A DNA stretch of 36,366 nt from Ignavibacteriota bacterium (GCA_016219595.1 JACRLY010000034.1:1-36366); one strand, 5' to 3'; positions 1,815 to 36,366 are shown, numbered from the stretch's first letter. Numbers and translations are program-made. The notes: generated by a model from the letters alone, not told the origin.

Positions 1815-1835
1815 ATATTCTTTTTATAAGAATAT
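1815..1835. other. AT-rich hairpin between lipoprotein copies 1 and 2
   Basis: ATATTCTT (1815-1822) and AAGAATAT (1828-1835) pair perfectly around a TTTAT loop. It could end the copy 1 transcript or belong to the copy 2 leader. It is AT-only apart from one base pair, so thermodynamically weak. Confidence 0.3.
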
Positions 1836-1906
1836 TTGACCAGAGTACACAGCGCGAAAATTCGAAATAATTGTAAAATAAATATAGATTTTTCGAGGGT
1901 GTGATT

Positions 1907-2623
1907 ATGAAAATGATTACAAAATTTTTGATTGTATTATTATTTCTATTTTTTCTTTTTTCCTGTTCTGAGGATAATACCACAAATCCTCAGCAATCAG
2001 AAACAATGGAAGATTACATGCCACTCACAATCGGCTCCTGGTGGAAATATGAATATTATGATGTTGACCTTAACGGAAATAGATTAAAAAAATATTCATT
2101 TATGCTAACTGTAACAGGAACAAAATTATTTGTAGGAAAACAATCGAAAATTATCACATTTACTATAATTGATTCAAACATTTCAATCAATCAATACAAT
2201 TATGCAATTGAAGATGATAAACTATTAATTTGTTATACATATCCTGAATACATTAAAAGATATGGTTGGTTTACAGAAGCTGATTTAAATAAAGAAGAAT
2301 GGACTATAATTGATACTACTGAATACTCAGATTCAATTGATTACCCTTATAAAACACATGAGTTTTGGACTATCAGAAAAGGCGGATATAAGGATTTTGT
2401 TATTAAAGATAAAACAATAAAGTCATTTGGATTTATTTCTGAACATTCTTACTCTCATACTCATTTCAATACACCTTCAGACAAAGATACCTTAAATTAC
2501 ATTATTGAAAATTGGTATGGTAACGGTGTAGGATTTATTTATAGTTTTTCAAAAGTAATATGGCATCCAAATTCAGGTCAGATGTATAATGAAACCATTT
2601 TAGTAGATTACGAAATAAAATAA
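1907..2623 (+). CDS. Lipoprotein of the tandem family, copy 2
   Basis: This is a predicted 238-residue lipoprotein. A GTG two codons upstream (1901) is in frame, but ATG at 1907 is chosen because GAGGG at 1895-1899 is correctly spaced and all sister copies start M-K-(M/L). The signal sequence ends L-F-S-C, followed by Ser-Glu-Asp-Asn. The signature D-Y-M-P-L-T-I-G-S-W-W-K-Y-E and the C-terminal E-T-I-L-V-D-Y-E-I-K are shared with copies 3 and 4. A central block (F-W-T-I-R-K-G-G-x-K-D-F, then F-G-F-I-S-E) recurs in the other copies too. The product is probably anchored in the outer membrane and its function is unknown. The stop region plus the 26-bp spacer to the next gene is itself repeated after copies 3 and 4, so the array grew by tandem duplication. 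Confidence 0.85.
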   Translation: MKMITKFLIVLLFLFFLFSCSEDNTTNPQQSETMEDYMPLTIGSWWKYEYYDVDLNGNRLKKYSFMLTVTGTKLFVGKQSKIITFTIIDSNISINQYNYAIEDDKLLICYTYPEYIKRYGWFTEADLNKEEWTIIDTTEYSDSIDYPYKTHEFWTIRKGGYKDFVIKDKTIKSFGFISEHSYSHTHFNTPSDKDTLNYIIENWYGNGVGFIYSFSKVIWHPNSGQMYNETILVDYEIK

Positions 2624-2658
2624 ATTATATAAATTTCTCAGGTGCAAAAATGAAATTG
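2606..2658 (+). repeat. Array junction repeat (copies at 2606, 3358, 4117)
   Basis: The end of each lipoprotein gene, the spacer, and the start of the next gene form a repeat of about 53 bp found at 2606-2658, 3358-3411 and 4117-4169. Each contains GATTACGAAATAAAATAA, then TATAAATTT(C/A)TCAGGTGCAA and ATGAAATTG, with only a few substitutions and small indels. It carries the stop codon, the Shine-Dalgarno sequence and the start codon. It is the likely site of unequal crossing-over in the array. Confidence 0.8.
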
Positions 2659-3375
2659 ATTTTAAAATTTTGGATTGTAATATTTACCATAATTTATCTT
2701 TTATCATGTACAAAAGATAATACTACAACTCCCCAAGATACAGAAACAATGTCTGATTACATGCCTCTCACTATCGGCTCCTGGTGGAAATATGAACAGT
2801 ATGATGTTGATGATTTTGGTACAAGATATAATAAAATGATTTATACATTAACTGTCACAGAAACAAAAATAGTTTCAGGTAAATTAGGATTTGTAATTTC
2901 TGCTAAATCTGAAAATTCTGATTCAACACACGAATTATATTATCATATTGAAGGTGAGGAATTATTTATTTTTGAAGAAGAAATAGCTGAGGAATATGGA
3001 GGTTGGCTTATTTTTGCTGATTTAAACAACAACCTGTGGACATTAAAAGATACTACTGAAATCTCAGATTCTGTAGGAATACATAGTGAATCATACACCA
3101 ATTGGACAATTAAAAAAGGTGGACAAAAAGATTTTCAATTAAATGGCAGGACAATTCAATCGCAAGAATTTATTTCAGAACTAATTTGGATAATAACTGA
3201 TATTAAGGAAAGCGTTTCAGATGTTGATACACTCAAATTTATTGGTCATACTTGGTATGGTAAAGGTGTTGGTATGATTCATAGAATTAATAGTGAAATA
3301 TTTACTCATAAAGATAATCCTTGGCCTAATAAAGAGGAGAAAGAAACAATTTTAATTGATTACGAAATAAAATAA
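2650..3375 (+). CDS. Lipoprotein of the tandem family, copy 3
   Basis: The 241-residue predicted lipoprotein has lipobox L-L-S-C followed by Thr-Lys-Asp-Asn. It starts at ATG 2650 behind CAGGTG (2639-2644), a good Shine-Dalgarno match also found before copies 4 and 5. The signature D-Y-M-P-L-T-I-G-S-W-W-K-Y-E lies about 35 residues in. The conserved centre is W-T-I-K-K-G-G-Q-K-D-F followed by Q-E-F-I-S-E, and the end is E-T-I-L-I-D-Y-E-I-K. The middle of the protein differs much more from its neighbours than the two ends do. That fits a common scaffold with a diversified central region. It is 26 bp from copy 2 and 27 bp from copy 4, so it is probably co-transcribed with both. Function unknown. 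Confidence 0.85.
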   Translation: MKLILKFWIVIFTIIYLLSCTKDNTTTPQDTETMSDYMPLTIGSWWKYEQYDVDDFGTRYNKMIYTLTVTETKIVSGKLGFVISAKSENSDSTHELYYHIEGEELFIFEEEIAEEYGGWLIFADLNNNLWTLKDTTEISDSVGIHSESYTNWTIKKGGQKDFQLNGRTIQSQEFISELIWIITDIKESVSDVDTLKFIGHTWYGKGVGMIHRINSEIFTHKDNPWPNKEEKETILIDYEIK

Positions 3376-3402
3376 ATTATATATAAATTTCTCAGGTGCA
3401 AA

Positions 3403-4134
3403 ATGAAATTGTCATTTAAATTTTCGTTTGTTATTTTTTTCTTATTATTTGTTTTATCATGTTCTAAAGACAACACTACCGATCCTCAAAGTACAGAAAC
3501 TATGGCTGATTACATGCCACTCACAATCGGCTCCTGGTGGAAATATGAGGGATATGAAATAGATAATTTTGGTAACAGGTATAATAAAAGCACATTCATT
3601 TTAACTATTACAGGAATAAAATATTTCGATGGAAAGAATACTTTTGTCTTAACCGGGCAAAAAGATAATACAGATTCAATTAAAGAATTTGGATACTGTG
3701 CTATTGAAGATGAAAAATTATTATTATACATCACAACTGAAGCAGCTAAGGGTATAGGTTGGTTGGTTTGGGTAGATTTTAAATCAGATTCAATTATTTT
3801 GAAAGATACAACCTATATTACTGATTCAGGGGGTGATATCATAGAAAATCATGATATGGTAACATTAAAAAAAGGTATGAAAAAAGATTTTACAGTAAAA
3901 AATAAAATTATTCAGGCTCAGGAATTTATTTCTGAAGGGATTTATATAACGAAAAAAACAAAGGATGGAATTGATTACTTTGATTCCACTATTTCAACTA
4001 ATCATAATTGGTTTGGGAAAAATGTCGGATATATTTATGGTACATCAACCTTTAAAATGTCAGGTTCAAATTATCCTTGGCCTTATTTTCAGCATAATAC
4101 AGAAACAATTTTAATTGATTACGAAATAAAATAA
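3403..4134 (+). CDS. Lipoprotein of the tandem family, copy 4
   Basis: The 243-residue predicted lipoprotein has lipobox V-L-S-C followed by Ser-Lys-Asp-Asn. The DNA coding for the M-P-L-T-I-G-S-W-W-K-Y segment (from about 3513) is nearly identical to that in copies 2 and 3, including third positions, which indicates recent duplication or gene conversion there. The first seven codons (M-K-L-S-F-K-F) match copy 5 closely. The centre again has V-T-L-K-K-G-M-K-K-D-F and A-Q-E-F-I-S-E, and the protein ends E-T-I-L-I-D-Y-E-I-K. CAGGTG precedes the ATG. It is likely an envelope lipoprotein of unknown role, co-transcribed with copies 2, 3 and 5. Confidence 0.85.
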   Translation: MKLSFKFSFVIFFLLFVLSCSKDNTTDPQSTETMADYMPLTIGSWWKYEGYEIDNFGNRYNKSTFILTITGIKYFDGKNTFVLTGQKDNTDSIKEFGYCAIEDEKLLLYITTEAAKGIGWLVWVDFKSDSIILKDTTYITDSGGDIIENHDMVTLKKGMKKDFTVKNKIIQAQEFISEGIYITKKTKDGIDYFDSTISTNHNWFGKNVGYIYGTSTFKMSGSNYPWPYFQHNTETILIDYEIK

Positions 4135-4160
4135 ATTATATAAATTTATCAGGTGCAATA

Positions 4161-4859
4161 ATGAAATTGTCATTTAAATTATCGTTTGTTATTTTTATCT
4201 TATTATTTGTATTTGCTTGTACAAAGGACAACATTATAAATACTTCAGAAACAAACCAAATTTATGAATACTTTCCTATTAGTAAAGACTCCTGGTGGAT
4301 ATATAATAAAATTTTTAAGGATAAAGACAACAATATTAAAAGTGATACATTTTTTACCAGTATCCAATACATTGATACTCTGGATGATGAAATAATAATT
4401 GGATTCAATTTAGTGAAAAATTCAACTGAAGTTGAATATATGAGTTATTCAATTACAGAATCAAAATTATTTAGTTATATTTTTCTATTTTATGGTGAAA
4501 TATTAATTGCTGATTTTAATACTAAAGAGAAAATTATATGCAAAGATAGTGTATCCGGTTATAACTCACCATCGGATACTTATTATAAGCAATTTCTCGA
4601 AATTACAAAGGAAGACAAAATTAATTATAATATTAAAAATAGAATAGTAAGTGCAGAGGTATTTAAAATTATGTTAAATTATTTTGATGATAATATTATT
4701 AGTAATAAATATACTCAATTAACCGATATTTATTATTTTAGTTTTGTTAAAAATATTGGAATAATAAACAAAACACACATTTTTAAATTTTCGGATAATA
4801 ATAATATAGTATTCAATGATACAAATGTTTATAACCTTATAGATTATGAAATAAAATAA
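4161..4859 (+). CDS. Lipoprotein of the tandem family, copy 5 (diverged)
   Basis: The 232-residue predicted lipoprotein has lipobox V-F-A-C followed by Thr-Lys-Asp-Asn. Its signal sequence is almost the same as in copy 4, and the leader CAGGTG plus flanking bases are shared. The mature part has drifted: the signature reads Y-F-P-I-S-K-D-S-W-W-I-Y and the end reads N-L-I-D-Y-E-I-K. The coding sequence is even richer in A and T than its neighbours, with many Asn, Ile and Lys codons. It is intact, with no frameshift or internal stop. It closes the array: a T-rich stretch (about 4861-4875) without a strong hairpin follows, and then the palindrome cluster. Function unknown. Confidence 0.8.
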   Translation: MKLSFKLSFVIFILLFVFACTKDNIINTSETNQIYEYFPISKDSWWIYNKIFKDKDNNIKSDTFFTSIQYIDTLDDEIIIGFNLVKNSTEVEYMSYSITESKLFSYIFLFYGEILIADFNTKEKIICKDSVSGYNSPSDTYYKQFLEITKEDKINYNIKNRIVSAEVFKIMLNYFDDNIISNKYTQLTDIYYFSFVKNIGIINKTHIFKFSDNNNIVFNDTNVYNLIDYEIK

Positions 4860-6862: not shown

Positions 6863-7153
6863 ATGGATTCAGGCTATAATATATTGGAGAAGATAAAAGA
6901 ACTTAAGCCATTTCTATGTTCTGAATATTCAGTAAAAGAAATTGGATTATTCGGCTCCTATTCTGATAACACTTATCATGATGAAAGTGATATTGACATA
7001 CTTGTAGAATTAGAAAAACCTATCGGATGGAAATTCCTATCATTAGAAATATATCTCGAAAAAATATTTGGAAAAAAAATTGATTTAATAACCAAGGATG
7101 CTTTAAAAGAACCTATCAAAGATTTAATCCTTCAACAAGTAAGGTATGTGTAA
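6863..7153 (+). CDS. mntA: MntA-type minimal nucleotidyltransferase antitoxin
   Basis: The 96-residue protein has the minimal nucleotidyltransferase signature G31-S-(x10)-D43-x-D45 and a later acidic residue in K-K-I-D-L-I-T. In MntA-HepT (HEPN/MNT) toxin-antitoxin systems this enzyme transfers AMP to a tyrosine of the HEPN toxin and so neutralises it. All expected catalytic positions are present, so the enzyme should be active. The stop codon is directly followed by the start of the HEPN partner with no spacer, the usual operon order and spacing. The pair lies between the polX gene and a remnant of a second polX 3' end, which indicates arrival or rearrangement by recombination. Confidence 0.92.
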   Translation: MDSGYNILEKIKELKPFLCSEYSVKEIGLFGSYSDNTYHDESDIDILVELEKPIGWKFLSLEIYLEKIFGKKIDLITKDALKEPIKDLILQQVRYV

Positions 7154-7528
7154 TTGAAAAAAGATAAACGTAATTATAAAATGTACCTCAAGGACATTCA
7201 GCTTTCAATGGAAAGAATTGCTGAATATATAAAAGATTATAATTATATTAGATTCAGACAGGATTTTAAAACAAGCGATGCGGTCACTAGAAATTTTGAG
7301 ATTATTGGCGAAGCATCGAAACAAATTCCTGATGACATAAAAGAAAAATATAGTTATATTCCTTGGCTTGAAATGTATTATCTCAGAAACAAAATAACCC
7401 ATGAATATTTTGGTATTGATTATGCGTTACTATGGGATATTGCTTCCAATTATTTACCGAATAATAAAAAACAGATTGATGAAATCATTAAGCAAGAATA
7501 TATAATTGATGACTCCCTTTTCAAATAA
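7154..7528 (+). CDS. hepT: HepT-type HEPN RNase toxin (DUF86)
   Basis: The 124-residue all-alpha HEPN protein has the diagnostic R-x4-H-x-Y motif at R78-N-K-I-T-H83-E-Y85, followed by F-G-I-D-Y as in DUF86 proteins. A-V-x-R-N-x-E-I-I-G-E-A near residues 43-54 is another family hallmark. HepT proteins are ribonucleases, and Tyr85 is the position modified by MntA in characterised pairs. The start taken is TTG at 7154, adjoining the mntA stop, because M-K-K-D-x-x-x-Y-x-x-Y-L-x-D-I matches the usual family N-terminus. ATG at 7181 would lose nine residues. No frameshift or motif loss is visible, so toxin and antitoxin both look functional. Possible roles are stress tolerance, phage defence or stabilisation of the segment. 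Confidence 0.92.
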   Translation: MKKDKRNYKMYLKDIQLSMERIAEYIKDYNYIRFRQDFKTSDAVTRNFEIIGEASKQIPDDIKEKYSYIPWLEMYYLRNKITHEYFGIDYALLWDIASNYLPNNKKQIDEIIKQEYIIDDSLFK

Positions 7529-22486: not shown

Positions 22487-22521
22487 AAAAAAAGGGGCTT
22501 TACCCTGTGGTAAAGCCCCTT
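22487..22521 (-). terminator. Strong hairpin terminator between convergent genes
   Basis: AAGGGGCTTTACC (22492-22504) pairs perfectly with GGTAAAGCCCCTT (22509-22521) around CTGT. On the minus strand the stem is followed by seven T (22493-22487), so it is an intrinsic terminator for the small minus-strand gene ending at 22555. On the plus strand it sits 14 bases after the giant gene and can act as a weaker terminator. Confidence 0.9.
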
Positions 22522-23266: not shown

Positions 23267-25909
23267 TCAATTAATTAAAATTTTACCTGTTACACAAGTA
23301 CTATTTATATATATAAAGTAAAAATATATGCCGGGTTCAACTTTCGAACAATCTAATAAAGATGGATTAAAATTTATTTTTTTATTTAATATTTTTCTGC
23401 CGTTCATATCGAATAGCATAAACTTTGACGCCATAATATTTTTATTTGTACTTACATAAATTTTATTATTTCCAGAATATTCAACTTTTACCAAATCACC
23501 TGCTGATTCTTTGACATCATCAGGCTTCCTTGTAATAAAATACCATGTTTCCGACCAATTACTCGAATCACCCGAATTCAATGCTTTCACATGCCAGTAA
23601 TAAATTGTATTATAATTCAAATCTTTATATAATATTTTAGTTGAATCAATGTTGTTTGCTGAAACAATAAATGATAAAAAATCAGGATATGTTGACAATT
23701 CGACATTATAACTCAAAGCATTTTCAACCGGCTGCCAAATTAATTCACCGTTTAATGGCACATCTTCGGAAAATATTACAGGTGATAATAGTTTTGGAGA
23801 ATCGAGTTCCTTTTTATCTTCAATAATAAAAGTATTAGTGTCAGACCAATTGCTTTTATTATCAAAATTCAATGCCCTGACCCTCCAGTAATAAACACTG
23901 TCATAATCGAGTTTGTCGGAGCTGAATATTGTATCAGTTATTCCTGTTTCATCAACAATACTCGAATCAAAATCTGTTATCTTTGATATATTTATCCTGT
24001 AATAAGTAGCTCCGGCAATTGAATCCCATCTGAAAATCCCTCTTTTCGAAAAACCGGATTCATTGTTGATTGGGCTTATTAATTTCGGAGTCATCAGACG
24101 GGTTGTAAAATTCCAGGGGTCAGACCAATTACTCTCATTAATTCCATAAACTGATTTCAGCCTCCAGTAATAGGTCGTATTATTATTTAAACCGCTTAAC
24201 CTGAATGTTGTATCAGATATTATTAAAGTATCGATTAGATTTACTGTAAAATTATTATTTCCACACAACTGCATTTGGTAAGCACTTGCATCAGGCACAG
24301 CTCTCCAAACCAAATCTCCTGCTATTGGAATTTTTTTGGAATTATCAGCAGGTGATATTAGAATTGGATTTTGGAAAACCTGGGGTTCTGCCAAAATAAA
24401 TTCTCCGAATGAATTAATACTTGCCTCGAGTGTCCCTTGTGACTGATTGTAAATGGTTGTCAATTCTGAAAAATTTCCACTGCCTTCCTGCTGTCTCCAA
24501 AATATTTTATATTTCCCGGGTGAATCGAGACTGTCAATCCCGGATAATTTGAAAATGATTTTTCCTTCAAAATCATCTACACCATTATTATTTATTACCC
24601 ATCTTTGACTGTATGTTTTCAAAGGTGTAACGTCACTATAAGATAAGTTATGAGGAGCATAATAATGTCTTTCTATAGACACATAACCCGCACCTCTCAT
24701 GTCTTGAGCATTGATAATTATTGATGTATTATTTTCTGAATCGTTAAAATCGAAAATTCCGGGATTTTGTATCAGCATAAGTTTAGATGCCATATTAATA
24801 GGATATCTTAAGGTCTGGTATGACTCGAAATTCCTGACTTCCATTGCCCTTGTTCCATCAGGTCTTGCTTCAATCAAAGTCATTTGCTGATTATTTGTAC
24901 CCCATCCAATAATTGTATTTCCATTTGGAAGTCTCTGAACACTTCCCTGTGACATTGAAAACACTTCAGGAAAATACCTGTATTCCCAAACCTTTCGAAT
25001 AGTTTTATTGATTTCATCCAATTCATATTCTACGGCTCTTGAGTATTTCTGAGGTTTTAAATTGCCATTATCAAACATCAGGAGATTACCGTTCTGAAGT
25101 TTATGAACTGAGTGCTGGTGCGAAAATCCCCAAAAGCCATTAACAGTATCGTTTAAAAATGTGAATTGATTATTCCTGCATTTCTTACCGCCAAGCCTCC
25201 AGATTATTTCACCGGTTTGCTTATTTATTTTAGTAATTTCATCCATATTCCTGTTTGAAATTATCAAATTGCCGTCTGTATCAATATCAATAAAATTTGT
25301 ATGAACCCATGAAATAAGCTGTTGAGTAAGGTCAATTTCATCTGTCGCATCAGTAACATTAAAATGTTCCGATGTGTGCCATTCCCAAACTACATTTTTA
25401 TCTGCATCCTGTTCCTGCAAGGCGTATGACATCAGGGTAGCAGACTGTTTGCCTCCGGGTGATACAGCACTCATATCCACAGTATCATATTCAATTCCTA
25501 ACAATAAAGCATGCCCGTTATTTAAAAGTTTGAAATCATGAAAATCAGTTTCAAGACCATTCTTACATGAAAAGCTATCGACTAAATTTAATTTATTGTC
25601 AATCAGATAAAATTTCTGATTCGCAAAATATGAGAATAACCCGTTTGGCTGATGGCTGAGAGTTCTTGCTGTTACTAATCCCTCGAGTCTCTTTTTATAT
25701 GCAGTAAGTCCTGAATTGTCAATTATTGATAGATAACCGGACTGGTAAGAATCTAATAATATATATCCTGGTGCAGGATTGTCAAGTGCTGTCATAACCA
25801 ATGGATTCCCCGGCTGAGCTTGAGAATTTATCAGGAAAATAAAAAATAAAAAAACAACTATCGTCAGTTTAATTTTTACTAAACTTCTTTGATTCCTACT
25901 ATGATACAT
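23267..25909 (-). CDS. Arylsulfotransferase-like secreted protein, paralog 1 (three FN3-like repeats, T9SS)
   Basis: The 880-residue protein has a signal peptide (ending S-Q-A-Q near residue 32) and an ASST-type propeller (about 35-390). Family motifs are T-D-F-H-D-F, W-V-H-T-N, I-T-K-I-N-K-Q-T-G-E-I-I-W-R-L-G-G, G-F-S-H-Q-H-S-V (261-268), L-M-F-D-N-G-N, S-R-A-V-E-Y and Q-R-L-P-N-G-N-T. E-R-H-Y-Y-A-P-H-N follows in a linking domain. ASST enzymes move sulfate between phenolic compounds through a sulfo-histidine; all the His motifs common to the array are present, though the nucleophile cannot be singled out by eye. Three fibronectin-III-like repeats (about 513-795; N-W-S-D/E-x-W-x-F) and a T9SS tail follow. 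It starts 10 bp after paralog 2 ends, so the two are co-transcribed. Closest to paralog 3. Confidence 0.85.
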   Translation of the reverse strand: MYHSRNQRSLVKIKLTIVVFLFFIFLINSQAQPGNPLVMTALDNPAPGYILLDSYQSGYLSIIDNSGLTAYKKRLEGLVTARTLSHQPNGLFSYFANQKFYLIDNKLNLVDSFSCKNGLETDFHDFKLLNNGHALLLGIEYDTVDMSAVSPGGKQSATLMSYALQEQDADKNVVWEWHTSEHFNVTDATDEIDLTQQLISWVHTNFIDIDTDGNLIISNRNMDEITKINKQTGEIIWRLGGKKCRNNQFTFLNDTVNGFWGFSHQHSVHKLQNGNLLMFDNGNLKPQKYSRAVEYELDEINKTIRKVWEYRYFPEVFSMSQGSVQRLPNGNTIIGWGTNNQQMTLIEARPDGTRAMEVRNFESYQTLRYPINMASKLMLIQNPGIFDFNDSENNTSIIINAQDMRGAGYVSIERHYYAPHNLSYSDVTPLKTYSQRWVINNNGVDDFEGKIIFKLSGIDSLDSPGKYKIFWRQQEGSGNFSELTTIYNQSQGTLEASINSFGEFILAEPQVFQNPILISPADNSKKIPIAGDLVWRAVPDASAYQMQLCGNNNFTVNLIDTLIISDTTFRLSGLNNNTTYYWRLKSVYGINESNWSDPWNFTTRLMTPKLISPINNESGFSKRGIFRWDSIAGATYYRINISKITDFDSSIVDETGITDTIFSSDKLDYDSVYYWRVRALNFDNKSNWSDTNTFIIEDKKELDSPKLLSPVIFSEDVPLNGELIWQPVENALSYNVELSTYPDFLSFIVSANNIDSTKILYKDLNYNTIYYWHVKALNSGDSSNWSETWYFITRKPDDVKESAGDLVKVEYSGNNKIYVSTNKNIMASKFMLFDMNGRKILNKKINFNPSLLDCSKVEPGIYFYFIYINSTCVTGKILIN

Positions 25910-25919
25910 TTTCTATACA

Positions 25920-28274
25920 TTATCTGATAATTATAAATTTACCCTGGTTAAATTTCCCATCGGTAATGAATGTATAGAAGTATATTCCATTTAAAAATTG
26001 TCTTGAATTTATAAAAATTGAATGTTCCCCGGAGTCATAATTTTTACTTTCTGAAAAAGCAACATTGCTGCCAAAATAATCATATATTGATAATGAAATT
26101 TGCTCTGACTTTTCTAATGAAAACCTGAATGACAATATGTCAGCATATATATTTTCAATTATAATATGGTGGTTTTGTTCTGAGTTTTCTACAGATGAAA
26201 TAGCCTCAGTTGTAAAATTCCAAATATCTGACCAGGGACTAAATGCTATTTCATTTTGAGAGCTGACATGCCAATAATAAACTGTATTATTCTCCAGATT
26301 ATTGTAATATAAGTTTGGTGTTTTGAGATGGATTCTTTTAAGAGTAATCTGCTGAAAATCGGGGTCAAGTGCAACCTCAATATTAAAATACTTTGCACCA
26401 TCAACAGTGTTCCATTTCAAATTGCCTGTAACCGGTACTTCAACAGACCCTGAAGCAGGCAATATTAAAACAGGAGCCTCAAGTTCCTGGCGTGGAATTG
26501 TTGTAAAAGTTCTGACTTCGGACCACTGACTTTCTAAAGTATCAATAAATGCTTTTACCCGCCAAAAATATTTGGTGTCATAATCAAGATTACTGCATAT
26601 AATATTAAATGATTCGATGATGCTTGTATCATTAGCTAATTTTGAAAATGAAGCATCCTCGGACAATTGCAGCCTGTACATATTTGCGTTAATTACCGGG
26701 TTCCAATTAAAAGTTGTACTTGTCTCCATATTTTTAGCATTGTTTTCGGGATGAGTTAACATTGGAGTTCCAACCTTTGGTGTCATGCATAAAATAAATT
26801 CACCGAAACCCCTGATTTCAGATTGAAGGCTATTTGAGACTGAATCATATAAGGTTTCTAACGGAAAAAATGTTCCTGAACCTTCTGCCTGTCTTGCATA
26901 AATAACAGTTTCGGCAGGATTTAATTTTCCTATTTCCGATAAGTCAAATTTAATTATTCCATAGAAATCAGTAATATTATAATTATTGATTACCCATCTG
27001 TTCGGATAAATTTCTTTATCTGCAAAATTAAACAGTGTAATATTATGCGGCTTATATGAATGTCTTTCAACTGATACATATCCCGTATCATTTGTTGAAA
27101 GTACATCGATTGAAATACCTGTTTTGCTATTGTTATCATTAAAATCATAAATACCCGAATTCTTAACAAGCAAAGTCTGAGACTGCATTTTATAAACTAA
27201 TCTCTTAACTCTATAACTAACAAAATTGAATATCTCCATTGCCTTACTATTATCAGGGTGAAGTTCAGTCATTGTCAACCACCTGTTATTAGTGCCCCAA
27301 CCAATCAGAGTGTTCCCGTTTGGAAGCCTTTGCACATTTCCCATAGCTGAAGAGTAGGTATCGGGAAATGAACGATACTGCCATACTCTTTTTGCAGTCT
27401 TTTCCACTTCATTAAGTTCATATTCAACTGCTCTCGAAAATGGAAAAGGTCTTGAATTGCCATTGTCAAATAATAACAGGTTGCCGTTTGGTAATCTTGA
27501 CACTGAATGTTGGTGAGAAAATCCGAAAAATCCCCAAATTGTATCATTAACAAATCTGAATTGATTGTTCTTGCATTTAGAACCTCCCAACCTCCAAATA
27601 ATTTCACCGGTCTTCCTGTTAATTTTTGTTATCTCGTCGAGAAACCTTGATGATAGCAAAAGATTACTGTCCAAATCAATTGCTATTGAATTAGAATGTG
27701 TCAAATCAAATCCTGTGCTCTTCAAATCATTTTCATTAATCTGGTCTGTTAATTTTATATGGTCAAACGAATTCCATTCGAATACAACATTTTTATTCTC
27801 ATCCAATTCCTGGATTACATTACCGACAACAGTTGCATCTTTTTTTCCTCCTTCAACTACTGCACTCATGTCAATCACTCTTGTATCAAGCCCAAGCATT
27901 ATAGCATGCCCGTTCGGCAGCAATATGAATTCATGATAATCTGTTACATATTTCCCTTTGCATTGAAAACTATCTATTATTATTTTGCCTGTATCAAGGA
28001 CATAAAATTTTTGATTTGAAAAAAATGTTAGAAAGCCGTTTGACTGCAATTGAACATTAGTATATGTAAAAAAGTTATTATAATTTTTAATAGTAACCGT
28101 TTGTCCTGAATTGTCAATCAAATTCAAATTGCCAGGCAGATAACTATCTAATGCCAGGTAACCTGGCGAAGGATTATTCAATGTAGTTACATACAATGAA
28201 AAAGGATCTACTGCAAATAGATTCAAATTAAATATAATACTAAAATATATAATAAGCTGAAATACCGTTCTCAT
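25920..28274 (-). CDS. Arylsulfotransferase-like secreted protein, paralog 2 (two FN3-like repeats, T9SS)
   Basis: The 784-residue protein has a signal peptide (about 1-21), an ASST-type propeller, two fibronectin-III-like repeats (about 503-686) and a T9SS sorting domain. Shared motifs: T-D-Y-H-E-F in place of D-F-H-D-F, L-T-H-S-N-S, W-R-L-G-G-S-K-C, G-F-S-H-Q-H-S-V (251-258), L-F-D-N-G-N-S-R, Q-R-L-P-N-G-N-T and E-R-H-S-Y-K-P-H-N. The tail reads S-L-S-I-Y-D-Y-F-G-S and G-I-Y-F-Y-T-F. It is the most distinct of the five visible propellers. It is preceded by a 148-bp spacer with TACTTTTG at 28313-28320, and followed after 10 bp by paralog 1; these two form a likely transcription unit. Confidence 0.85.
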   Translation of the reverse strand: MRTVFQLIIYFSIIFNLNLFAVDPFSLYVTTLNNPSPGYLALDSYLPGNLNLIDNSGQTVTIKNYNNFFTYTNVQLQSNGFLTFFSNQKFYVLDTGKIIIDSFQCKGKYVTDYHEFILLPNGHAIMLGLDTRVIDMSAVVEGGKKDATVVGNVIQELDENKNVVFEWNSFDHIKLTDQINENDLKSTGFDLTHSNSIAIDLDSNLLLSSRFLDEITKINRKTGEIIWRLGGSKCKNNQFRFVNDTIWGFFGFSHQHSVSRLPNGNLLLFDNGNSRPFPFSRAVEYELNEVEKTAKRVWQYRSFPDTYSSAMGNVQRLPNGNTLIGWGTNNRWLTMTELHPDNSKAMEIFNFVSYRVKRLVYKMQSQTLLVKNSGIYDFNDNNSKTGISIDVLSTNDTGYVSVERHSYKPHNITLFNFADKEIYPNRWVINNYNITDFYGIIKFDLSEIGKLNPAETVIYARQAEGSGTFFPLETLYDSVSNSLQSEIRGFGEFILCMTPKVGTPMLTHPENNAKNMETSTTFNWNPVINANMYRLQLSEDASFSKLANDTSIIESFNIICSNLDYDTKYFWRVKAFIDTLESQWSEVRTFTTIPRQELEAPVLILPASGSVEVPVTGNLKWNTVDGAKYFNIEVALDPDFQQITLKRIHLKTPNLYYNNLENNTVYYWHVSSQNEIAFSPWSDIWNFTTEAISSVENSEQNHHIIIENIYADILSFRFSLEKSEQISLSIYDYFGSNVAFSESKNYDSGEHSIFINSRQFLNGIYFYTFITDGKFNQGKFIIIR

Positions 28275-28312
28275 AGCATTCTCTCTATAATTAAAAAGAT
28301 TAACAGGTTTTG

Positions 28313-28320
28313 CAAAAGTA
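28313..28320 (-). promoter_or_regulatory. Candidate -7 box for the paralog 2-1 unit
   Basis: The minus strand reads TACTTTTG, matching TAnnTTTG, 39 bases upstream of the paralog 2 start. GAGAG lies shortly before the ATG as a possible ribosome site. No clear -33 box is seen. Confidence 0.4.
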
Positions 28321-28422
28321 TATTATGATAAATAAAATTCCTAATTATTTTTATTAATATAGAAATGCACAGTATAATTAATATTTTATCGAATTATTTT
28401 ATTTTACATTAATAAAATAATT

Positions 28423-31062
28423 TTATTCAAATAAGAACTTACCATAATGAAGTCTGTCTGCAGTAATTATCCGGTAAAAATAAATACCTTTCTCAATAAT
28501 ACCGGGATTAATCCTTATTATTGAAGATCCTTTATTTGATTTATTTTGATTATATGAATATACTCTATTTCCTCTCAAATCAAATAAGTTAAAAATTAAT
28601 CGATTTGATTCTTCTTCAGAATCTATAAGGAGTGTTATACCATCACTTAAATTATTAATTATCATTATTTTATCACTTTCATCCCTAATAATCACATTTT
28701 CATAAATTAGAGTTGTGAAGTTCCATGTCTCAGACCAGGGACTAATACCATTAGAATTTACTGCAGCTACATGCCAGTAATAATTTGTATAATATTCCAG
28801 GCTATCGTAATCTAATTGAGTTGAATCAATTTCTTCAGCATTTATAATGTTAGCGAGGAAATCCGGATATAATGATAATTCCAATTTATATTTCTCTGCA
28901 CCAGCTACAGAATCCCATTTAAAATTTCCTGAAACAGGTACCTCGGATTTATTTTTTTCCGGAGAAATCAATAATGGACTATTAAGTGATTTCTTTTTCT
29001 CAGTAATAAAATGATTTGTATCCGACCAATTACTTTCATTATCGAAATTCATTGCTTTCACCCGCCAATAATAATTATTGGCGTAATCCATGATTGAAGT
29101 ACGGTAGTTAGTATCTGTAATTCCTGTTTCATCTACAATAATCGAATCAAATTCACTTGTTTTCGATATATTAATTTTATAATAAGATGCACCTGATGTT
29201 GAATGCCACTCAAAATCACCCTGTAAATTAAAATCTATTGAATTATTTAGTGGCTTAACAAGAACAGGTGAAGCAAGAATAGTTGTGAAATTCCATGTCG
29301 AAGTCCACTCACTCGTGTTATTTCCATAAACCGATTGCAGTCTCCAGTAATATAATTTGTTATTGTCAAATCCATCAAAACTGAATAATGTATCAATAAT
29401 ATTTGTATCAATAAGATTAGAAGAAAAATTCGAATTTTCAGAAATCTGTAATTTATAGGAATCCGATCCATTGATTTTCCCCCAAACAATATTTATTGAA
29501 AGTGGATTTTTCTTTGAACCGTTATTCGGAGAAACCGGTACGGGTATCTCATATAAAGGTGGTTCTGCAATAATAAATTCTCCGAAAGAAGTAATTTCAG
29601 CTTCAATCGTGCCTGAGGATTGGTTATAGTTTGATGGAAGCTTAATAAAACTGCCGCTTCCTTCATGTTGACGCCAAAATATATTATATTTATCGGGAGA
29701 TTCAAGACTGTCAATTTCAGAGATTAAAAAACTTATTTTAGCCGATAAATTGGAAATACCTTTATTATTGATCACCCATCTGTTCGGATACCAGCTTATG
29801 GGTGTTACATCTGAAAATTGAATATTATGAGGCTCATAATAATGTCTTTCTACAGAAACAAATCCATTACCTGTTTTTGATTTAATATTTAAGGATATTG
29901 CTGTTTTATTTGCTGAATCGGAAAAAGAATAAATTCCTATATTTTGTATCATTAGTAATTTGGAATCCATTTTTACTGGATAACGCATTGCAAGATATGC
30001 GTCAAAATCCCTGACTTCCATAGCCCTGCTTCCATCAGGGAATACTTCCGTCAATGTCATTTGCTGATTATTTGTACCCCAGCCAATCATTGTGTTACCA
30101 TTTGGGAGTCTTTGGACACTTCCCTGAAACATAGTATAAGTTTCAGGAAAAGAATGATATTCCCATACTCTAGTGATTGTTTTATTCACTTCATCTAATT
30201 CATATTCTACTGCTCTCGAATGTTGAATTGGTTTTTGATTGCCGTTGTCAAACATAAGCAAATTTCCGTTGCTTAATCTATGAACCGAGTGCTGGTGCGA
30301 GAATCCCCAAAAATTATTAACAGTGTCATTTAAGAAATTGAATTGATTATTTTTGGATGCTTTTCCACCAAGCCGCCAAATAATATCACCTGTTACTTTA
30401 TTTATTTTAGTTATCTCATCCATGTTACGGTTTGAAATTACTATATTCCCGTCATAATCTAATTCTATCCAATTTGTATGAGTCCAAGGTATTACATCCC
30501 ATGTCAAATCTATATCCGATGTAACATCTGAAATCTGGAAATGTTCCGACGATTTCCATTCCCACACTACATTTTTGCTTTCATCCTGTTCCTGGATTAC
30601 CGAAGAATTTAGTATGGCGTTTGGCTTTCCCCCGGGAATAATTGCACTCATGTCGACTGTGTCATGTTTAATGCCGATTAAAAAAGCATGCCCGTCCGGA
30701 GTTAATTTGAAATCGTGAAAATCGGTGTCACAACCATTTTTTACTTCAAAACTGTCAGTTATTACAAAGTTATAATCTGTTATATAAAACTTGTTCCCGG
30801 AAAAATAGGACACTTTCCCATTCGGCTGTAATTCAAGTGTTATTGAAGTTTGAGATTTATTCAATTTTTTTCTATAAACAATTTGTCCTGAATTATCTAC
30901 ATAACCGAGGTAATCAAGAAAGTAGGATTGCAGAAATATATAACCGGGTGAAGGATTATCGAGTGTCACAACATTAATATCAGTTTGTGAAAATGCTGTG
31001 AAACTTTGATTTAAAATAAGAAAAATTATTAAAATATATAATTTAAAAAAGAAAGTGCGCAT
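28423..31062 (-). CDS. Arylsulfotransferase-like secreted protein, paralog 3 (three FN3-like repeats, T9SS)
   Basis: The 879-residue protein is taken from ATG 31062, one base after the stop of paralog 4; an in-frame TTG at 31074 lies inside paralog 4 and would only add K-I-K. It has a signal peptide (ending A-F-S-Q), an ASST-type propeller with T-D-F-H-D-F, W-T-H-T-N, W-R-L-G-G, G-F-S-H-Q-H-S-V (253-260), S-R-A-V-E-Y, Q-R-L-P-N-G-N-T and E-R-H-Y-Y-E-P-H-N, three fibronectin-III-like repeats (about 506-786) and a T9SS tail. It differs from the other paralogs in lacking the Cys after W-R-L-G-G-K (A-S-K-N-N-Q instead of x-C-K-N-N-Q), and its other propeller Cys is shifted (N-G-C-D-T). Any disulfide joining those two positions in paralogs 1, 2 and 5 is therefore absent or different here. 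Confidence 0.85.
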   Translation of the reverse strand: MRTFFFKLYILIIFLILNQSFTAFSQTDINVVTLDNPSPGYIFLQSYFLDYLGYVDNSGQIVYRKKLNKSQTSITLELQPNGKVSYFSGNKFYITDYNFVITDSFEVKNGCDTDFHDFKLTPDGHAFLIGIKHDTVDMSAIIPGGKPNAILNSSVIQEQDESKNVVWEWKSSEHFQISDVTSDIDLTWDVIPWTHTNWIELDYDGNIVISNRNMDEITKINKVTGDIIWRLGGKASKNNQFNFLNDTVNNFWGFSHQHSVHRLSNGNLLMFDNGNQKPIQHSRAVEYELDEVNKTITRVWEYHSFPETYTMFQGSVQRLPNGNTMIGWGTNNQQMTLTEVFPDGSRAMEVRDFDAYLAMRYPVKMDSKLLMIQNIGIYSFSDSANKTAISLNIKSKTGNGFVSVERHYYEPHNIQFSDVTPISWYPNRWVINNKGISNLSAKISFLISEIDSLESPDKYNIFWRQHEGSGSFIKLPSNYNQSSGTIEAEITSFGEFIIAEPPLYEIPVPVSPNNGSKKNPLSINIVWGKINGSDSYKLQISENSNFSSNLIDTNIIDTLFSFDGFDNNKLYYWRLQSVYGNNTSEWTSTWNFTTILASPVLVKPLNNSIDFNLQGDFEWHSTSGASYYKINISKTSEFDSIIVDETGITDTNYRTSIMDYANNYYWRVKAMNFDNESNWSDTNHFITEKKKSLNSPLLISPEKNKSEVPVSGNFKWDSVAGAEKYKLELSLYPDFLANIINAEEIDSTQLDYDSLEYYTNYYWHVAAVNSNGISPWSETWNFTTLIYENVIIRDESDKIMIINNLSDGITLLIDSEEESNRLIFNLFDLRGNRVYSYNQNKSNKGSSIIRINPGIIEKGIYFYRIITADRLHYGKFLFE

Positions 31063-31063
31063 T

Positions 31064-33418
31064 TTAATTTTCAATAATAAATTTTCCGGATAATAATTGG
31101 TTACCTATTAATAATTTATAAACATAAAGACCGGTAGAATGACTTTGTATATTAAAATTAATTGTAATTTTATTACTGTTATCAGAAATTCCTTTTGAGT
31201 ATGAAATTAGTTCCCCAATCATATCATATATATTCAACTGATATGAACCAGTGAAATTTTTATATGAACTGAATGTCAATATTCCATCTTCATTGGAAAT
31301 TTCAATTCCATTTTTTTGTTCGGATAAATCAACAGATTGAAATTTATCGGTAACAAACATCCATGATGGCGACCACCCGCTTTCATTTTCATTATTCAAT
31401 GACTCCACCCTCCAGTAATGAGGTCTTTCGGGAATTAATCCATTATAATCCAGAGAGGATTCACTTATATAATAACGTTTTAATACCGGCAATGAAAGTT
31501 CGGGGTCAAGGTATACTTCAACATTGTAGTATAATGCACCTGGAACATTTTCCCATTTGAATGAACCGTCCAAAGGAACTAGAGTATCCCTGTCCTGAGG
31601 ATATATAGGTAATGGATATGACAATATATCTTTCGTTCTCGTTGTAAAACTAAAAACCTTTGACCAGGGACTTTGTTCATTATTATTAAATGCCTTTACC
31701 CGCCAATAGTATGTAGTGTTAAAATCCAGATTCAGGTCTAACCAGGTAGTTGTCATATTCGTTGAATCAATAATCTGATTGGAAAAATCAGGATAATAAG
31801 ACAACTGGAATCTGTAACTTGTTGATACTGACATCGTCTGCCACATTAACGTAAATCCAGTTTCAATGTTATTCTCGCCGTTAGGAGGGAATAAAGCAAT
31901 AGGAGCCAATACAGTTGGAACAATTCCTATTATAAACTCGCCTGAACCTTTTATGTCCGCTTCAAAACATTTTTCAGTTTTATTATACCTGGTATCCAGC
32001 TGAGAAAAATTACCTTTTCCTTCATATTCCCTGCAAAAAATAAAATAATTATTTTCACTTATTGCAGTATCGTGGTCTACATAAATCCTTATCGTAGCCT
32101 CAAAATCTGAAATACCATTCCTTTGCAATACCCATCTCTTTTCACCTGTAATTGGCTGAAAAGGATTAGATAATTCAAAACTTAGATTGTGAGGTTTGTA
32201 AAAATGTTCTTCAACACCTACATAACCATTACCTTCAACCTTATTAAATATTATTTTTACTTCCGTTTTATTAGTATCATTTGAAAAATCGTATAAGCCG
32301 GGTTTATCGACATACCGAAGCACAGAGTGAGCCATTAAGAAATTTCTGTAAATCGAATAATTTTGATAGCCGATAATTTCCATCGCTTTAGTGCCATCAG
32401 GTTTTACTTCGGTTGCAGTCATGTTTCTTGTGTTTATTCCCCAGCAAATCAATGTATTCCCGTTTGCAAGCCTTTGAACATTTCCCATTGCTGATGATTT
32501 GATTTCAGGAAATGGTGAATACTCCCAAATTTTTTCAATTGTTTTATTTTGTTCGTCAATCTTATATTCAACTGCCCTCGAATATTCTTTTGGCTTAAGA
32601 TTGCCATTATCAAACATAAGAATATTCCCGTTTGACAACCTGACTACGGAATGCTGATGGGAAAATCCCCAGAATCCATCTATTGTATCATTTAAAAAAC
32701 GGAACTGGTTATTCTTACATTCTTTTCCTCCGAGTCTCCACATTATTTCCCCTGTCTGCCTGTTTATTTTTGTTATCTCATCAAGTATCCTCGATGAAAT
32801 AATTATATTACCGTCAGTATCATAAAATACTGAATTCATATGACAAGCTATAAATGAAGGCTGCTTTATATCAATTTCAGAGGTTACATCTGTAAATTTA
32901 AAATGGTCAAATGAACTCCATTGAAATACTACATTTTTATTTTTGTCAAGTTCCTGCACCACATTCCCGAAAACTAACGCATTTGGATTGCCCCCGGTAA
33001 TGACCTTACTCATATCGACAAATCTTGTTTCTCTTCCAATCAATACTGCATTTCCATTAGGAATAAGTGCAAAATCATGAAAATCACCCTCGAAATCCCC
33101 GACAAGGCTAAAACTATCTACTACAACTAAGTCTCTGTTCATTATATAATATTTATTTCCGGAAAAAAAGCTCAGAAATCCGTTTGTTTCCATATTTAAG
33201 TTGAATAATGCATCAAACTTTTCAAGTGATTTATAGTATACAGGTTCTCCGGCATTATCAATCATATAAAACTGACCAGAAAGATGGGGTGTCATAAATA
33301 AATATCCTATTGAAGGATTATCCTGGTAGGTTACTTCAAAAGGTTTTAACTCTATTGAAAACAAATTCAAATGGAAGCATGCTACTATTACAATTACAAT
33401 AATTAAAAAAAATTTCAT
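31064..33418 (-). CDS. Arylsulfotransferase-like secreted protein, paralog 4 (two FN3-like repeats, T9SS)
   Basis: The 784-residue protein has a signal peptide (about 1-21), an ASST-type propeller, two fibronectin-III-like repeats (about 503-691) and a T9SS tail ending G-K-F-I-I-E-N. Motifs: G-D-F-H-D-F, A-C-H-M-N-S, W-R-L-G-G-K-E-C, G-F-S-H-Q-H-S-V (251-258), S-R-A-V-E-Y, Q-R-L-A-N-G-N-T and E-E-H-F-Y-K-P-H-N. Its propeller is closest to paralog 5, sharing C-H-M-N-S-V-F-Y-D-T-D-G and V-V-Q/V-I-Q-E-(L/I)-D. Its stop is one base from the start of paralog 3, so those two genes are tightly coupled. A 139-bp spacer separates it from paralog 5; no strong promoter match was found there. Confidence 0.85.
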   Translation of the reverse strand: MKFFLIIVIVIVACFHLNLFSIELKPFEVTYQDNPSIGYLFMTPHLSGQFYMIDNAGEPVYYKSLEKFDALFNLNMETNGFLSFFSGNKYYIMNRDLVVVDSFSLVGDFEGDFHDFALIPNGNAVLIGRETRFVDMSKVITGGNPNALVFGNVVQELDKNKNVVFQWSSFDHFKFTDVTSEIDIKQPSFIACHMNSVFYDTDGNIIISSRILDEITKINRQTGEIMWRLGGKECKNNQFRFLNDTIDGFWGFSHQHSVVRLSNGNILMFDNGNLKPKEYSRAVEYKIDEQNKTIEKIWEYSPFPEIKSSAMGNVQRLANGNTLICWGINTRNMTATEVKPDGTKAMEIIGYQNYSIYRNFLMAHSVLRYVDKPGLYDFSNDTNKTEVKIIFNKVEGNGYVGVEEHFYKPHNLSFELSNPFQPITGEKRWVLQRNGISDFEATIRIYVDHDTAISENNYFIFCREYEGKGNFSQLDTRYNKTEKCFEADIKGSGEFIIGIVPTVLAPIALFPPNGENNIETGFTLMWQTMSVSTSYRFQLSYYPDFSNQIIDSTNMTTTWLDLNLDFNTTYYWRVKAFNNNEQSPWSKVFSFTTRTKDILSYPLPIYPQDRDTLVPLDGSFKWENVPGALYYNVEVYLDPELSLPVLKRYYISESSLDYNGLIPERPHYWRVESLNNENESGWSPSWMFVTDKFQSVDLSEQKNGIEISNEDGILTFSSYKNFTGSYQLNIYDMIGELISYSKGISDNSNKITINFNIQSHSTGLYVYKLLIGNQLLSGKFIIEN

Positions 33419-33557
33419 CTCAAGATACCGCTAAAATTATCACATCCTCTTTATCAAATCACATATTCTTTTTTTCCCTTATTAAATCGGTAATGTCATT
33501 TAACTAAATTTCATTACATAATTAATACCTATATTTTATCATAAGGAATATTTTTCC

Positions 33558-35609
33558 CTAATTTTCAATATATAATTTACCAAATTCGATTTTATCAGCA
33601 AGGATTATCCTGTAGAAATAAATACCGCAGTAAAAATCCTTAATATTCAATTCAAATTCATTATTGTTATCATTAAAATTCCGGATTAAACCGGTAACAG
33701 GATTTCCCAAAATATCATAAAGAGAGAAATTTATTCTTCCGCTAATATTTCTCTTAAATAATAATTTATTCCCCATCTGTGTAATCGTCAGCATCAATCC
33801 CTCATCATTATAATTAATTCCGGATTCGGGTGATGTGGTAAATGTATTTGTTTTCGACCAGGTACTTTGTTTATCTTCGTTAAATGCTTTAATTCTCCAA
33901 TAATATTTAGTATTATAGTCAAGATTTAGATTGAATGTTGTGTCTGCAATATTCGATGAATCAACAATGATATTAAAAAAATCATGATTATCAGAAACCT
34001 GGAGCCTGTAATATGAAGAAATCGAAACAGGTTCCCACACAAATTTACATTGCACGGTAACTTCAACAGCACTGTCCGGTGGATTAATGCAAACAGGTGC
34101 TGATACTACCGGTACAAATCCAATTATAAATTCACCTGAATTATTAATTTCAGCTTCAAAACATTTTTCATTAATATTGTAAATAGTTTCTAATCTTTCA
34201 AATTTTCCGCTTCCTTCAACGGCTCTTCCGTATATATGATATTCATCAGCAGAGTATGAACTGTCATAATTAATATTAAACTTTATTGTTGCGGAGAAAT
34301 CACTGATTCCGTTTCTTGAAATTACCCATCTTTTCATACCGGTTTCCGGTATTGAATCATCTGTGAATTCCAAATTATGCGGAGGATAAAAGTGTTCCTC
34401 AGCAGAAATGTTCCCTGAGCCGGTAAAATTTTTAACCTGTAATTTTATACCTGTAATATTAGTGTCTTTATCAAAAATATAAATACCCTGATTTTCAATG
34501 TTCAAGGTAACAGCATGCATTTTATAAATATTTTTATAAGCAGCATAACTTTGGGACGGAAATCCTTTAATCTCTAATGTTTTTGAGCCATCTGGTCTGA
34601 CTTCAGTGGCAATCAAACTTTTACCGTTAGCTCCCCAACCTATAAAAGTGTTCCCGTTAGGAAGTCTCTGTGCATTACCGGTTGCCATTGAAAATACTTT
34701 TGTTGTATCAAAAAATTCCCAGACTTTCTCAATTGTTTTGTTAGTTTCGTCAATCCTGTATTCAACTGCTCTCGAGTATGGCTGAGGTTTCAGATTTCCA
34801 TTATCAAACATAAACAAATTGCCATTTGCCAACCTTGCAACGGAATGCTGATGTGAAAATCCATAAAAATCATCAATGGTATCATTCAGGAATTGAAATT
34901 GGTTGTTTTTACACATTTTTCCACCCAACCTCCAAATAATTTCACCGGTCAACTTATTTATTTTTGTAATTTCATCAAGAACCCGGCTCGAGAATATTAT
35001 ATTGCCATCAGTATCATAGAATACAGAATTCATATGGCATGAAATAATAGTCGGTTGCAAAATGTTAATGTCCGGAGTAACATCTGTAATATCAAAATGG
35101 TCTAAAGATTTCCATTCAAAAACAACATTTTTATTCTCATCAATTTCCTGTATTACATTTCCAAAAACCACCGCGTTAGTATTCCCTCCGGGAACTTTCT
35201 GGCTCATATCCACAAACCTTCTTTCACCTCCAATAAGTACAGCATGTCCGTTTGGAAATAGTGTGAAATCATGGAAATCCGTATCATAATTATTTTTGCA
35301 TCTGATACTATCGAGTATTTCTTCACTGTCGTTCATTATGAAATATTTAATAGCTGAAAAATAACTTATTAATCCGATTGGTTCTACGTTTAGATTTATA
35401 AAGTTATTCATACCACCCAGATTTTTTACATAAATAGGATACCCCGGATTATCAACAAGGTAAAATGTTCCGGGTGGAGTTGGTGTTAAAAACAAATAAC
35501 CCGGAGCAGGATTATCCATAATTGACACATTTAATTTCTCCGGGTCAACGGCATTAAGTTGTAAATGAAATGTCACAAACAAAAATGTTATTAGTATTAT
35601 TCTACTCAT
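33558..35609 (-). CDS. Arylsulfotransferase-like secreted protein, paralog 5 (one FN3-like repeat, T9SS)
   Basis: The 683-residue protein is taken from ATG 35609; an in-frame TTG two codons earlier is less likely. It has a signal peptide (ending Q-L-N-A near residue 20), an ASST-type propeller with T-D-F-H-D-F, S-C-H-M-N-S, W-R-L-G-G-K-M-C, G-F-S-H-Q-H-S-V (250-257), S-R-A-V-E-Y, Q-R-L-P-N-G-N-T and E-E-H-F-Y-P-P-H-N, a single fibronectin-III-like repeat (about 500-591) and a T9SS tail (F-S-L-Y-D-I-L-G-N, G-K-L-Y-I-E-N). It is about 100 residues shorter than paralogs 2 and 4 because one repeat is absent. It lies 72 bp after paralog 6, probably in the same transcription unit. Confidence 0.85.
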   Translation of the reverse strand: MSRIILITFLFVTFHLQLNAVDPEKLNVSIMDNPAPGYLFLTPTPPGTFYLVDNPGYPIYVKNLGGMNNFINLNVEPIGLISYFSAIKYFIMNDSEEILDSIRCKNNYDTDFHDFTLFPNGHAVLIGGERRFVDMSQKVPGGNTNAVVFGNVIQEIDENKNVVFEWKSLDHFDITDVTPDINILQPTIISCHMNSVFYDTDGNIIFSSRVLDEITKINKLTGEIIWRLGGKMCKNNQFQFLNDTIDDFYGFSHQHSVARLANGNLFMFDNGNLKPQPYSRAVEYRIDETNKTIEKVWEFFDTTKVFSMATGNAQRLPNGNTFIGWGANGKSLIATEVRPDGSKTLEIKGFPSQSYAAYKNIYKMHAVTLNIENQGIYIFDKDTNITGIKLQVKNFTGSGNISAEEHFYPPHNLEFTDDSIPETGMKRWVISRNGISDFSATIKFNINYDSSYSADEYHIYGRAVEGSGKFERLETIYNINEKCFEAEINNSGEFIIGFVPVVSAPVCINPPDSAVEVTVQCKFVWEPVSISSYYRLQVSDNHDFFNIIVDSSNIADTTFNLNLDYNTKYYWRIKAFNEDKQSTWSKTNTFTTSPESGINYNDEGLMLTITQMGNKLLFKRNISGRINFSLYDILGNPVTGLIRNFNDNNNEFELNIKDFYCGIYFYRIILADKIEFGKLYIEN

Positions 35610-35681
35610 TGTCAATTATCCATTTATTATAAATTTATCTTTTTCTAATGATATTATTGATTCAAATTAATTCAATAAATA

Positions 35682-36366
35682 TTATTTCCCTATATATAAT
35701 TTGCCGTACTTTTCATTTCCGGCTAAACTGATTTTATAGAAATATACACCATAATTCATATCATTGCAAAATATGCCGGGCAAATTACCTGTCCCGGGAT
35801 TTACATAATTTTCATCTTTCACAATATTGCCAATTAAATCATATATTTGAAATTTAATACTCCCGGTATTGTAATTCAATTTAATTTGTAAATAATCATT
35901 TTCCTGTTGAATCGTAAAATCCTGGTCGTTATCCTCAGCAACTTGATTTGCGTCCTTTGTAATGAACTTATTGATATTTGACCAATTGCTTTGAGAACTC
36001 CCTGTTTGAGCTTTCACATGCCAATAATATTCAGTTCCATTTCTTAAGACCAATTCGAGATGATTATCCGTGATGTTTGACGAATCAATTAATAAATCCG
36101 AAAAATCGGAATTGTAAGAAAGTTGAAATCTGAAAAATGCATTTGATGATAATCCCTGCCATAAGAAATTAGTATTAATATCAATATTACTGGAATTATC
36201 TGTCGGAAAAATTGCAGTCGGAGCTTCAAGTAATTCTATTGTTCCTATAATAAATTCCCCCGGTCCTGAAATTTTTCCTTTAATTGTATTTGTCTCTTTA
36301 TCATAATAAGTTTCCAATGGATAAAAATCTCCTGTCGCTTCCATTGACCTGAAAAATATTATTTTA
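35682..36366 (-). CDS. Arylsulfotransferase-like secreted protein, paralog 6, C-terminal part only
   Basis: The frame runs off the window end without a start, so this is the 3' end of a longer gene. The visible 228 residues begin R-S-M-E-A-T-G-D-F-Y-P-L-E, which aligns with R-A-V-E-G-S-G-K-F-E-R-L-E of paralog 5 in the linking domain. One fibronectin-III-like repeat follows (A-P-T-A-I-F-P to F-I-T-K-D), then a T9SS sorting domain (K-F-Q-I-Y-D-L-I-G-N, G-V-Y-F-Y-K-I, G-K-L-Y-I-G-K). An internal Met at 36344 is not the start. The propeller itself is not in the window, but its presence is expected from the homology. Confidence 0.8.
   Translation of the reverse strand, partial: KIIFFRSMEATGDFYPLETYYDKETNTIKGKISGPGEFIIGTIELLEAPTAIFPTDNSSNIDINTNFLWQGLSSNAFFRFQLSYNSDFSDLLIDSSNITDNHLELVLRNGTEYYWHVKAQTGSSQSNWSNINKFITKDANQVAEDNDQDFTIQQENDYLQIKLNYNTGSIKFQIYDLIGNIVKDENYVNPGTGNLPGIFCNDMNYGVYFYKISLAGNEKYGKLYIGK

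Follow-up and report, generated by a model that had tools for sequence, protein, structure and literature searches.

A gene cluster joining sulfate activation, a ketosynthase and arrayed secreted arylsulfotransferases suggests a two-step sulfation relay at the bacterial cell surface

Which sulfate donor could serve a whole array of secreted arylsulfotransferases (ASSTs), and what would they sulfate? According to a 2026 review, the natural acceptors of most ASSTs were unidentified, their natural substrates were not known and their physiological role was poorly understood (PMC13426309). This question was raised by an Ignavibacteriota draft genome of 3.4 Mb. The window, that is, the whole stretch of 36,366 nucleotides that was analysed, covered positions 1-36366 of an 80,667-base contig (C111). 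A preliminary description of it proposed at least six ASST-like genes, encoding T9SS cargo, which would act on many phenolic or sulfated substrates.

The five complete ASST open reading frames and the sixth one cut by the window edge were found as described, but the array was longer. When the contig was followed further in order to count the copies, three ASSTs (copies 6, 7 and 8) reached past the window. The resulting eight PF05935 genes, located at C111:23267-45560 and all on the minus strand, represented every PF05935 match in a search of the whole genome. Moreover, the array was interrupted by three non-ASST genes with mutual gaps of only 7-13 bases. Thus, the eight ASSTs and this three-gene cassette apparently formed a co-directional cluster of 11 genes, listed here with two nearby features.

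22492-22521, minus strand: terminator-like hairpin, 13 pairs followed by a T tract, about 0.75 kb downstream of ASST copy 1
23267-25909, minus strand: ASST copy 1, 880 aa; propeller ASST domain, fn3-like repeats and T9SS tail; 5/5 AssT catalytic residues
25920-28274, minus strand: ASST copy 2, 784 aa; 5/5 catalytic residues
28423-31074, minus strand: ASST copy 3, 883 aa; 5/5 catalytic residues
31064-33418, minus strand: ASST copy 4, 784 aa; H114, H193, N195, R210 and H256
33558-35615, minus strand: ASST copy 5, 685 aa; structure modelled, Cpz4 as top structural match
35682-36366, minus strand: ASST copy 6, C-terminal part (fn3, T9SS tail); the gene runs on to contig position 37796 and contains a short assembly run of N
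C111:37921-38457, minus strand: APS kinase, between ASST copies 6 and 7, beyond the window
C111:38465-39544, minus strand: PAPS-dependent sulfotransferase, between ASST copies 6 and 7, beyond the window
C111:39558-40526, minus strand: KAS III-type ketosynthase, between ASST copies 6 and 7, beyond the window
C111:40590-43130 (= L021:7591-10131), minus strand: ASST copy 7, beyond the window
C111:43170-45560 (= L021:10171-12561), minus strand: ASST copy 8, beyond the window
L021:16738-18393, plus strand: TlpA/ResA-like thioredoxin-domain protein, about 4 kb past the array

The last of these genes qualified the earlier remark that no Dsb-type partner was nearby: a thioredoxin-domain gene did exist in the vicinity, and nothing tied it to the ASSTs.

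The profile search placed the array well past the cut-off in the family that had been suggested for it. All eight genes matched PF05935 (54-134 bits, cut-off 24.2), and copies 1-5 did so with E-values of 2e-34 to 7e-38 (120-131 bits, gathering score 24.2) while also matching PF14269, fn3-like repeats and the T9SS C-terminal domain. The latter match was mostly weak in copies 1-5 (Pfam Por_Secre_tail, 18-24 bits, cut-off 27); TIGR04183 exceeded its cut-off in copies 1-3, 7 and 8, and stayed below it in copies 4-6. The sorting domains, weak in several copies, together with the presence in the genome of the T9SS translocon gene sprA supported the proposed role as T9SS cargo.

A structural model of copy 5 (built from 11 sequences, mean pLDDT 82) had its best solved match in the Cpz4 crystal structures 9kf6 and 9kf4 (Z 38.2 over 325 residues, 2.3 A, 29% identity), followed by E. 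coli AssT (Z about 32) and then by non-transferase propellers (Z 20 and below). Hence, the top matches were ASSTs, as the preliminary description had anticipated. By sequence too, Cpz4 was the nearest solved ASST (2e-22 versus 7e-6 for AssT), this being a choice between two since the solved ASST structures are of two kinds.

The catalytic positions were placed by aligning a 25-ASST profile with the E. coli AssT of known structure, whose catalytic residues are His252, His356, Asn358, Arg374 and His436 (PMC13426309). All five were unchanged in copies 1-6, although the mean column identity of the alignment was only 31%; in copy 4, for instance, H114, H193, N195, R210 and H256 corresponded to them in this order. 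The position of AssT Thr501 was not conserved and was occupied by M, Q or T. In copy 7, Asn358 was replaced by Ser and Arg374 by Val. Copy 8 had lost four of the five residues, with Asn, Asn, Ala and Asn at the positions of His252, His356, Arg374 and His436. It therefore appeared as a natural pseudoenzyme inside the array, and its Asn at the His436 position corresponded to the H436N substitution with which E. coli AssT has been crystallised. Among its orthologues, the one in relative G002 also lacked His436 and the one in G003 retained it.

Thus, the array comprised six canonical enzymes, one variant (copy 7) and one probably non-catalytic member (copy 8). With catalytic residues altered or lost in two of eight copies, the expansion was not simply one of eight active transferases. 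The His motifs and the active site described earlier as conserved were present in all five complete copies and in copy 6, but not as such in copies 7 and 8. One of these motifs, E-(R/E)-H-x-x-x-P-H-N, occurred in the copies, but it contained no known AssT catalytic residue, and the second ASST class did not share it.

The three genes inserted between copies 6 and 7 pointed to a possible donor. No APS kinase besides this one (TIGR00455, 221 bits, cut-off 138.7) was detected in the genome, and an ATP sulfurylase was encoded elsewhere, on contig C27. The sulfotransferase belonged to PF13469 and had invariant PRSGTT (PAPS-loop) and RDP...S motifs. A hydrophobic stretch near its N-terminus, present in 9/9 orthologues, suggests that its substrate is membrane-near and lipid-like.

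The third gene encoded a ketosynthase of the KAS III type (PF08541/PF08545). Its fold model was poor (pLDDT 63, three sequences), so the fold search was only supporting and sequence evidence was used instead. Of the 62 PDB sequences matched, the top ones were MxnB (3e-53) and CorB (5e-51), with FabH at 3e-43 and weaker. The enzyme formed a clade with MxnB and CorB to the exclusion of FabH (support 100/99 and 100/100), and had in common with them the Cys-His-Asn triad (C107, H250, N279) as well as the motifs CLSF, PEDN and GNC. It was not the housekeeping FabH, which was encoded separately on contig C30 and fell in a different clade. It was not PpyS/OleA-like either, as the catalytic Glu was missing (Ile82 here, Val94 in MxnB, which likewise lacks the PpyS-type Glu). 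MxnB joins two beta-ketoacyl chains into an alpha-pyrone ring (PMC5724707). Unlike MxnB and CorB, with which it shared about 33% identity, the cassette ketosynthase stood alone, without a modular polyketide synthase, and had Ala311 in place of MxnB Ser324. A sister group of MxnB/CorB-like KAS III enzymes from another Bacteroidota family (f29, L112-L130; one per matching genome, relatives at about 250 bits) was closer to MxnB than the cassette enzyme and lacked this sulfotransferase. Clade membership therefore did not fix the product of the ketosynthase, which would most likely be a 4-hydroxy-alpha-pyrone or a similar lipid.

The association of these genes extended beyond a single genome. In our set of relatives, many of which (as in the other comparisons) were metagenome bins, the ketosynthase and the sulfotransferase occurred side by side in the same five genomes, our own included. 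Two of them (G002 and G003) had the same order of ASST8, ASST7, ketosynthase, sulfotransferase, APS kinase and ASST array. In G007 (L064:5648-16741), the run comprised the ketosynthase, the sulfotransferase, CysD, a CysN-CysC fusion, a four-gene ABC transporter (three members checked) and an ASST; this transporter was of the phosphate type, with a PF12849 binding protein, and was possibly recruited for sulfate uptake. In G015, the contig ended just upstream of the ketosynthase, and this locus was excluded from the count of ASST linkage. A scan of genome contigs revealed the cassette in a KSB1 bacterium, located beside an ASST and followed by DUF1302, MMPL, LolA-like, ATP sulfurylase and APS kinase genes. 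Furthermore, a search of the KSB1 phylum with the ketosynthase profile retrieved three new genomes. These loci were found blind, since the ketosynthase alone was the query, and in 3/3 the sulfotransferase adjoined it and an ASST adjoined the pair; two of them had 3 to 5 ASSTs each. In total, the sulfotransferase adjoined the ketosynthase in 9/9 genomes and an ASST was in the same gene run at 8/8 testable loci from two phyla. We roughly estimated the chance of an ASST lying within a few kilobases at well below 1% per locus, using a density taken from another phylum (about 110 ASST matches in 60 genomes).

The idea that the cassette was common in its phylum was rejected: among 395 sampled genomes of the phylum, the sulfotransferase was present in our genome only, and the cassette was therefore rare. 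It may have been transferred between phyla. In G010 (L066:2-2344), a 482-aa ASST-like open reading frame adjoined a PAPS sulfotransferase of lower similarity (38% identity), and the contig ended there.

The ASSTs themselves showed two patterns with regard to the cassette. First, copies 1-6 and their counterparts formed one clade (16 rows, SH-aLRT 99) that was confined to cassette-bearing genomes; G001, from the same genus, had a single ASST and no cassette, possibly owing to an assembly gap. Second, the cassette-linked ASST lacked the Arg374 equivalent at 8/8 loci in both phyla (L021:7591-10131, L064, L062, L088, L090, L106, L107 and L108) and kept His252, His356 and His436. The Arg374 position was occupied by Val, Val, Val and Ala in one phylum and by Leu, Leu, Leu and Val in the other. 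The equivalent Arg was kept by Cpz4 and by nearly all other ASSTs, and was Pro in the cassette-less relative G020. Judged by these residues, the cassette ASST is a distinct variant, and it might be fitted to the donor made by the cassette.

A two-step sulfation of this kind has been described in caprazamycin biosynthesis of Streptomyces, which involves the PAPS sulfotransferase Cpz8, the ASST Cpz4 and a type III polyketide synthase (Tang 2013, as cited in PMC4257720 and PMC6731281). According to the same papers, Cpz4 takes sulfate from a PAPS-sulfated triketide pyrone. Both clusters combined a PAPS-dependent sulfotransferase with an ASST, and they corresponded step for step: an enzyme for a polyketide-type enol carrier (its product being inferred here), a PAPS enzyme and an ASST. 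In addition, copies 1-6 had the same five catalytic residues as Cpz4. The new features in comparison to the caprazamycin relay are the surface location of the ASSTs as T9SS cargo, their arrays, the spread over two phyla and the carrier enzyme, an MxnB/CorB-like KAS III ketosynthase rather than the type III polyketide synthase of those accounts. The cluster also had an APS kinase and no antibiotic genes, and belonged to other phyla. We located no literature on sulfated alkylpyrone donors and no article for PDB entry 9KF4.

With PAPS formation, a PAPS-dependent sulfotransferase and a ketosynthase resembling pyrone synthases encoded within it, the array indicated a self-made donor. The many phenolic or sulfated substrates from outside, as initially envisaged, were accordingly not supported. 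We consider it probable, with some reserve, that the locus encodes a two-step relay at the cell surface in which a self-made sulfated enol or pyrone carrier feeds the secreted ASSTs. The more specific form, in which a small-molecule sulfate carrier made by the KAS III-type ketosynthase and the PAPS sulfotransferase is exported to T9SS-secreted surface ASSTs in both phyla, seems to us evenly balanced between right and wrong. The relay was based on gene content, gene order, conservation, catalytic residues and clade membership as read from the sequence; the carrier structure (the ketosynthase product), its export and the acceptors were added by inference.

In such a relay, the APS kinase would provide PAPS in the cytoplasm, where the MxnB/CorB-like ketosynthase would condense acyl chains to give a small ring compound with an enol group. 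The PAPS-dependent sulfotransferase would sulfate the enol hydroxyl, giving an activated donor resembling an aryl sulfate. This donor would then exit the cell; a lipid exporter of the MMPL/LolA kind was located in the cluster of one relative, and no exporter was seen adjoining the array in the present genome. Outside, the ASSTs delivered by the T9SS would take the sulfuryl group on the His436 equivalent and hand it to acceptors, and the six canonical copies, with their differing fn3 domains, could serve different acceptors. Copy 7 would be the cassette-linked variant, and copy 8 would probably serve as a non-catalytic partner. If this is true, it would explain how extracellular targets are sulfated though PAPS remains inside the cell, and the caprazamycin relay would reach beyond antibiotic production to general chemistry on the surface of Gram-negative bacteria. 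A conserved cluster that joins sulfate activation, carrier making and ASSTs thus points to a likely donor, and such ASST-donor pairs could be offered for PAPS-free sulfation in biotechnology.

Alternatively, the secreted ASSTs could use environmental aryl sulfates, such as phenol sulfates of plant, humic or animal origin, as was proposed for the periplasmic AssT; the ketosynthase-sulfotransferase pair would then make an unrelated sulfated lipid and share the operon by chance. AssT and other known ASSTs do accept simple aryl sulfates (PMC13426309). Moreover, ASSTs occurred in pairs or arrays in many relatives in which neither the cassette nor an APS kinase was detected (e.g., G012, G019, G021 and G027), so these ASSTs can work without the cassette and need another source of donor. 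On the other hand, chance sharing sat poorly with the pair and an ASST being in one run at every testable locus of two phyla, three of them found blind, and with the restriction of the copies 1-6 expansion to cassette-bearing genomes. We therefore regard scavenging as unlikely. E. coli AssT, which functions with DsbL/DsbI, resembled the array members in fold and in the catalytic residues except Thr501. However, it is a single periplasmic enzyme without donor-making genes and was less similar to them than Cpz4, and the array lacked a dedicated Dsb pair.

Somewhat more doubtful still was the possibility that the end product of the cassette is a sulfated signal or antibiotic, with the cassette-linked ASST adding or moving the sulfate and the other copies acting on variants. 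Cpz4 is a direct parallel as a tailoring enzyme in caprazamycin, and KAS III-type pyrone synthases give rise to signals and antibiotics (PMC4578411). Likewise, the adp cluster, which makes sulfated alkylresorcinols (adipostatins), resembled the present one in keeping a polyketide enzyme, a PAPS sulfotransferase and its own PAPS genes together (available part of PMC12135136). It differed in the kind of polyketide synthase and in sulfating an end product, and no ASST was among the genes described in that part. Against this possibility, the T9SS tails implied that the ASSTs act outside, after the compound has left the cell, and the cluster had no further biosynthetic, tailoring or resistance genes. 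Finally, the propellers could be adhesins or other surface binding proteins that have taken over the ASST fold and transfer little or no sulfate. The fn3 domains, the T9SS tails and the residues lost in copy 8 (and two in copy 7) could be cited for this reading, but it was very improbable, given the unchanged active site of copies 1-6 in an otherwise divergent ASST alignment and the constant linkage of the cassette to sulfate-activating genes.

For the surface relay that we favour, transcription of the 11 genes as a single operon was assumed from their strand and spacing. The hairpin at 22492-22521 is a possible 3' end of the array transcript by its consensus match, in a promoter and terminator scan that was not above chance (four terminator-like hairpins found versus 5.2 expected in shuffles).

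The window also contained features apart from the array. Consecutive small lipoprotein-like genes of one family, sharing the YMPLTIGSWWKYE motif, occupied positions 1070-4859 and represented another tandem expansion; one member tested matched no Pfam family. At 6863-7528, a short nucleotidyltransferase-like open reading frame lay immediately before a HepT-like ribonuclease gene (PF01934, E 8e-25), and this pair looks like an MNT-HepT toxin-antitoxin system.
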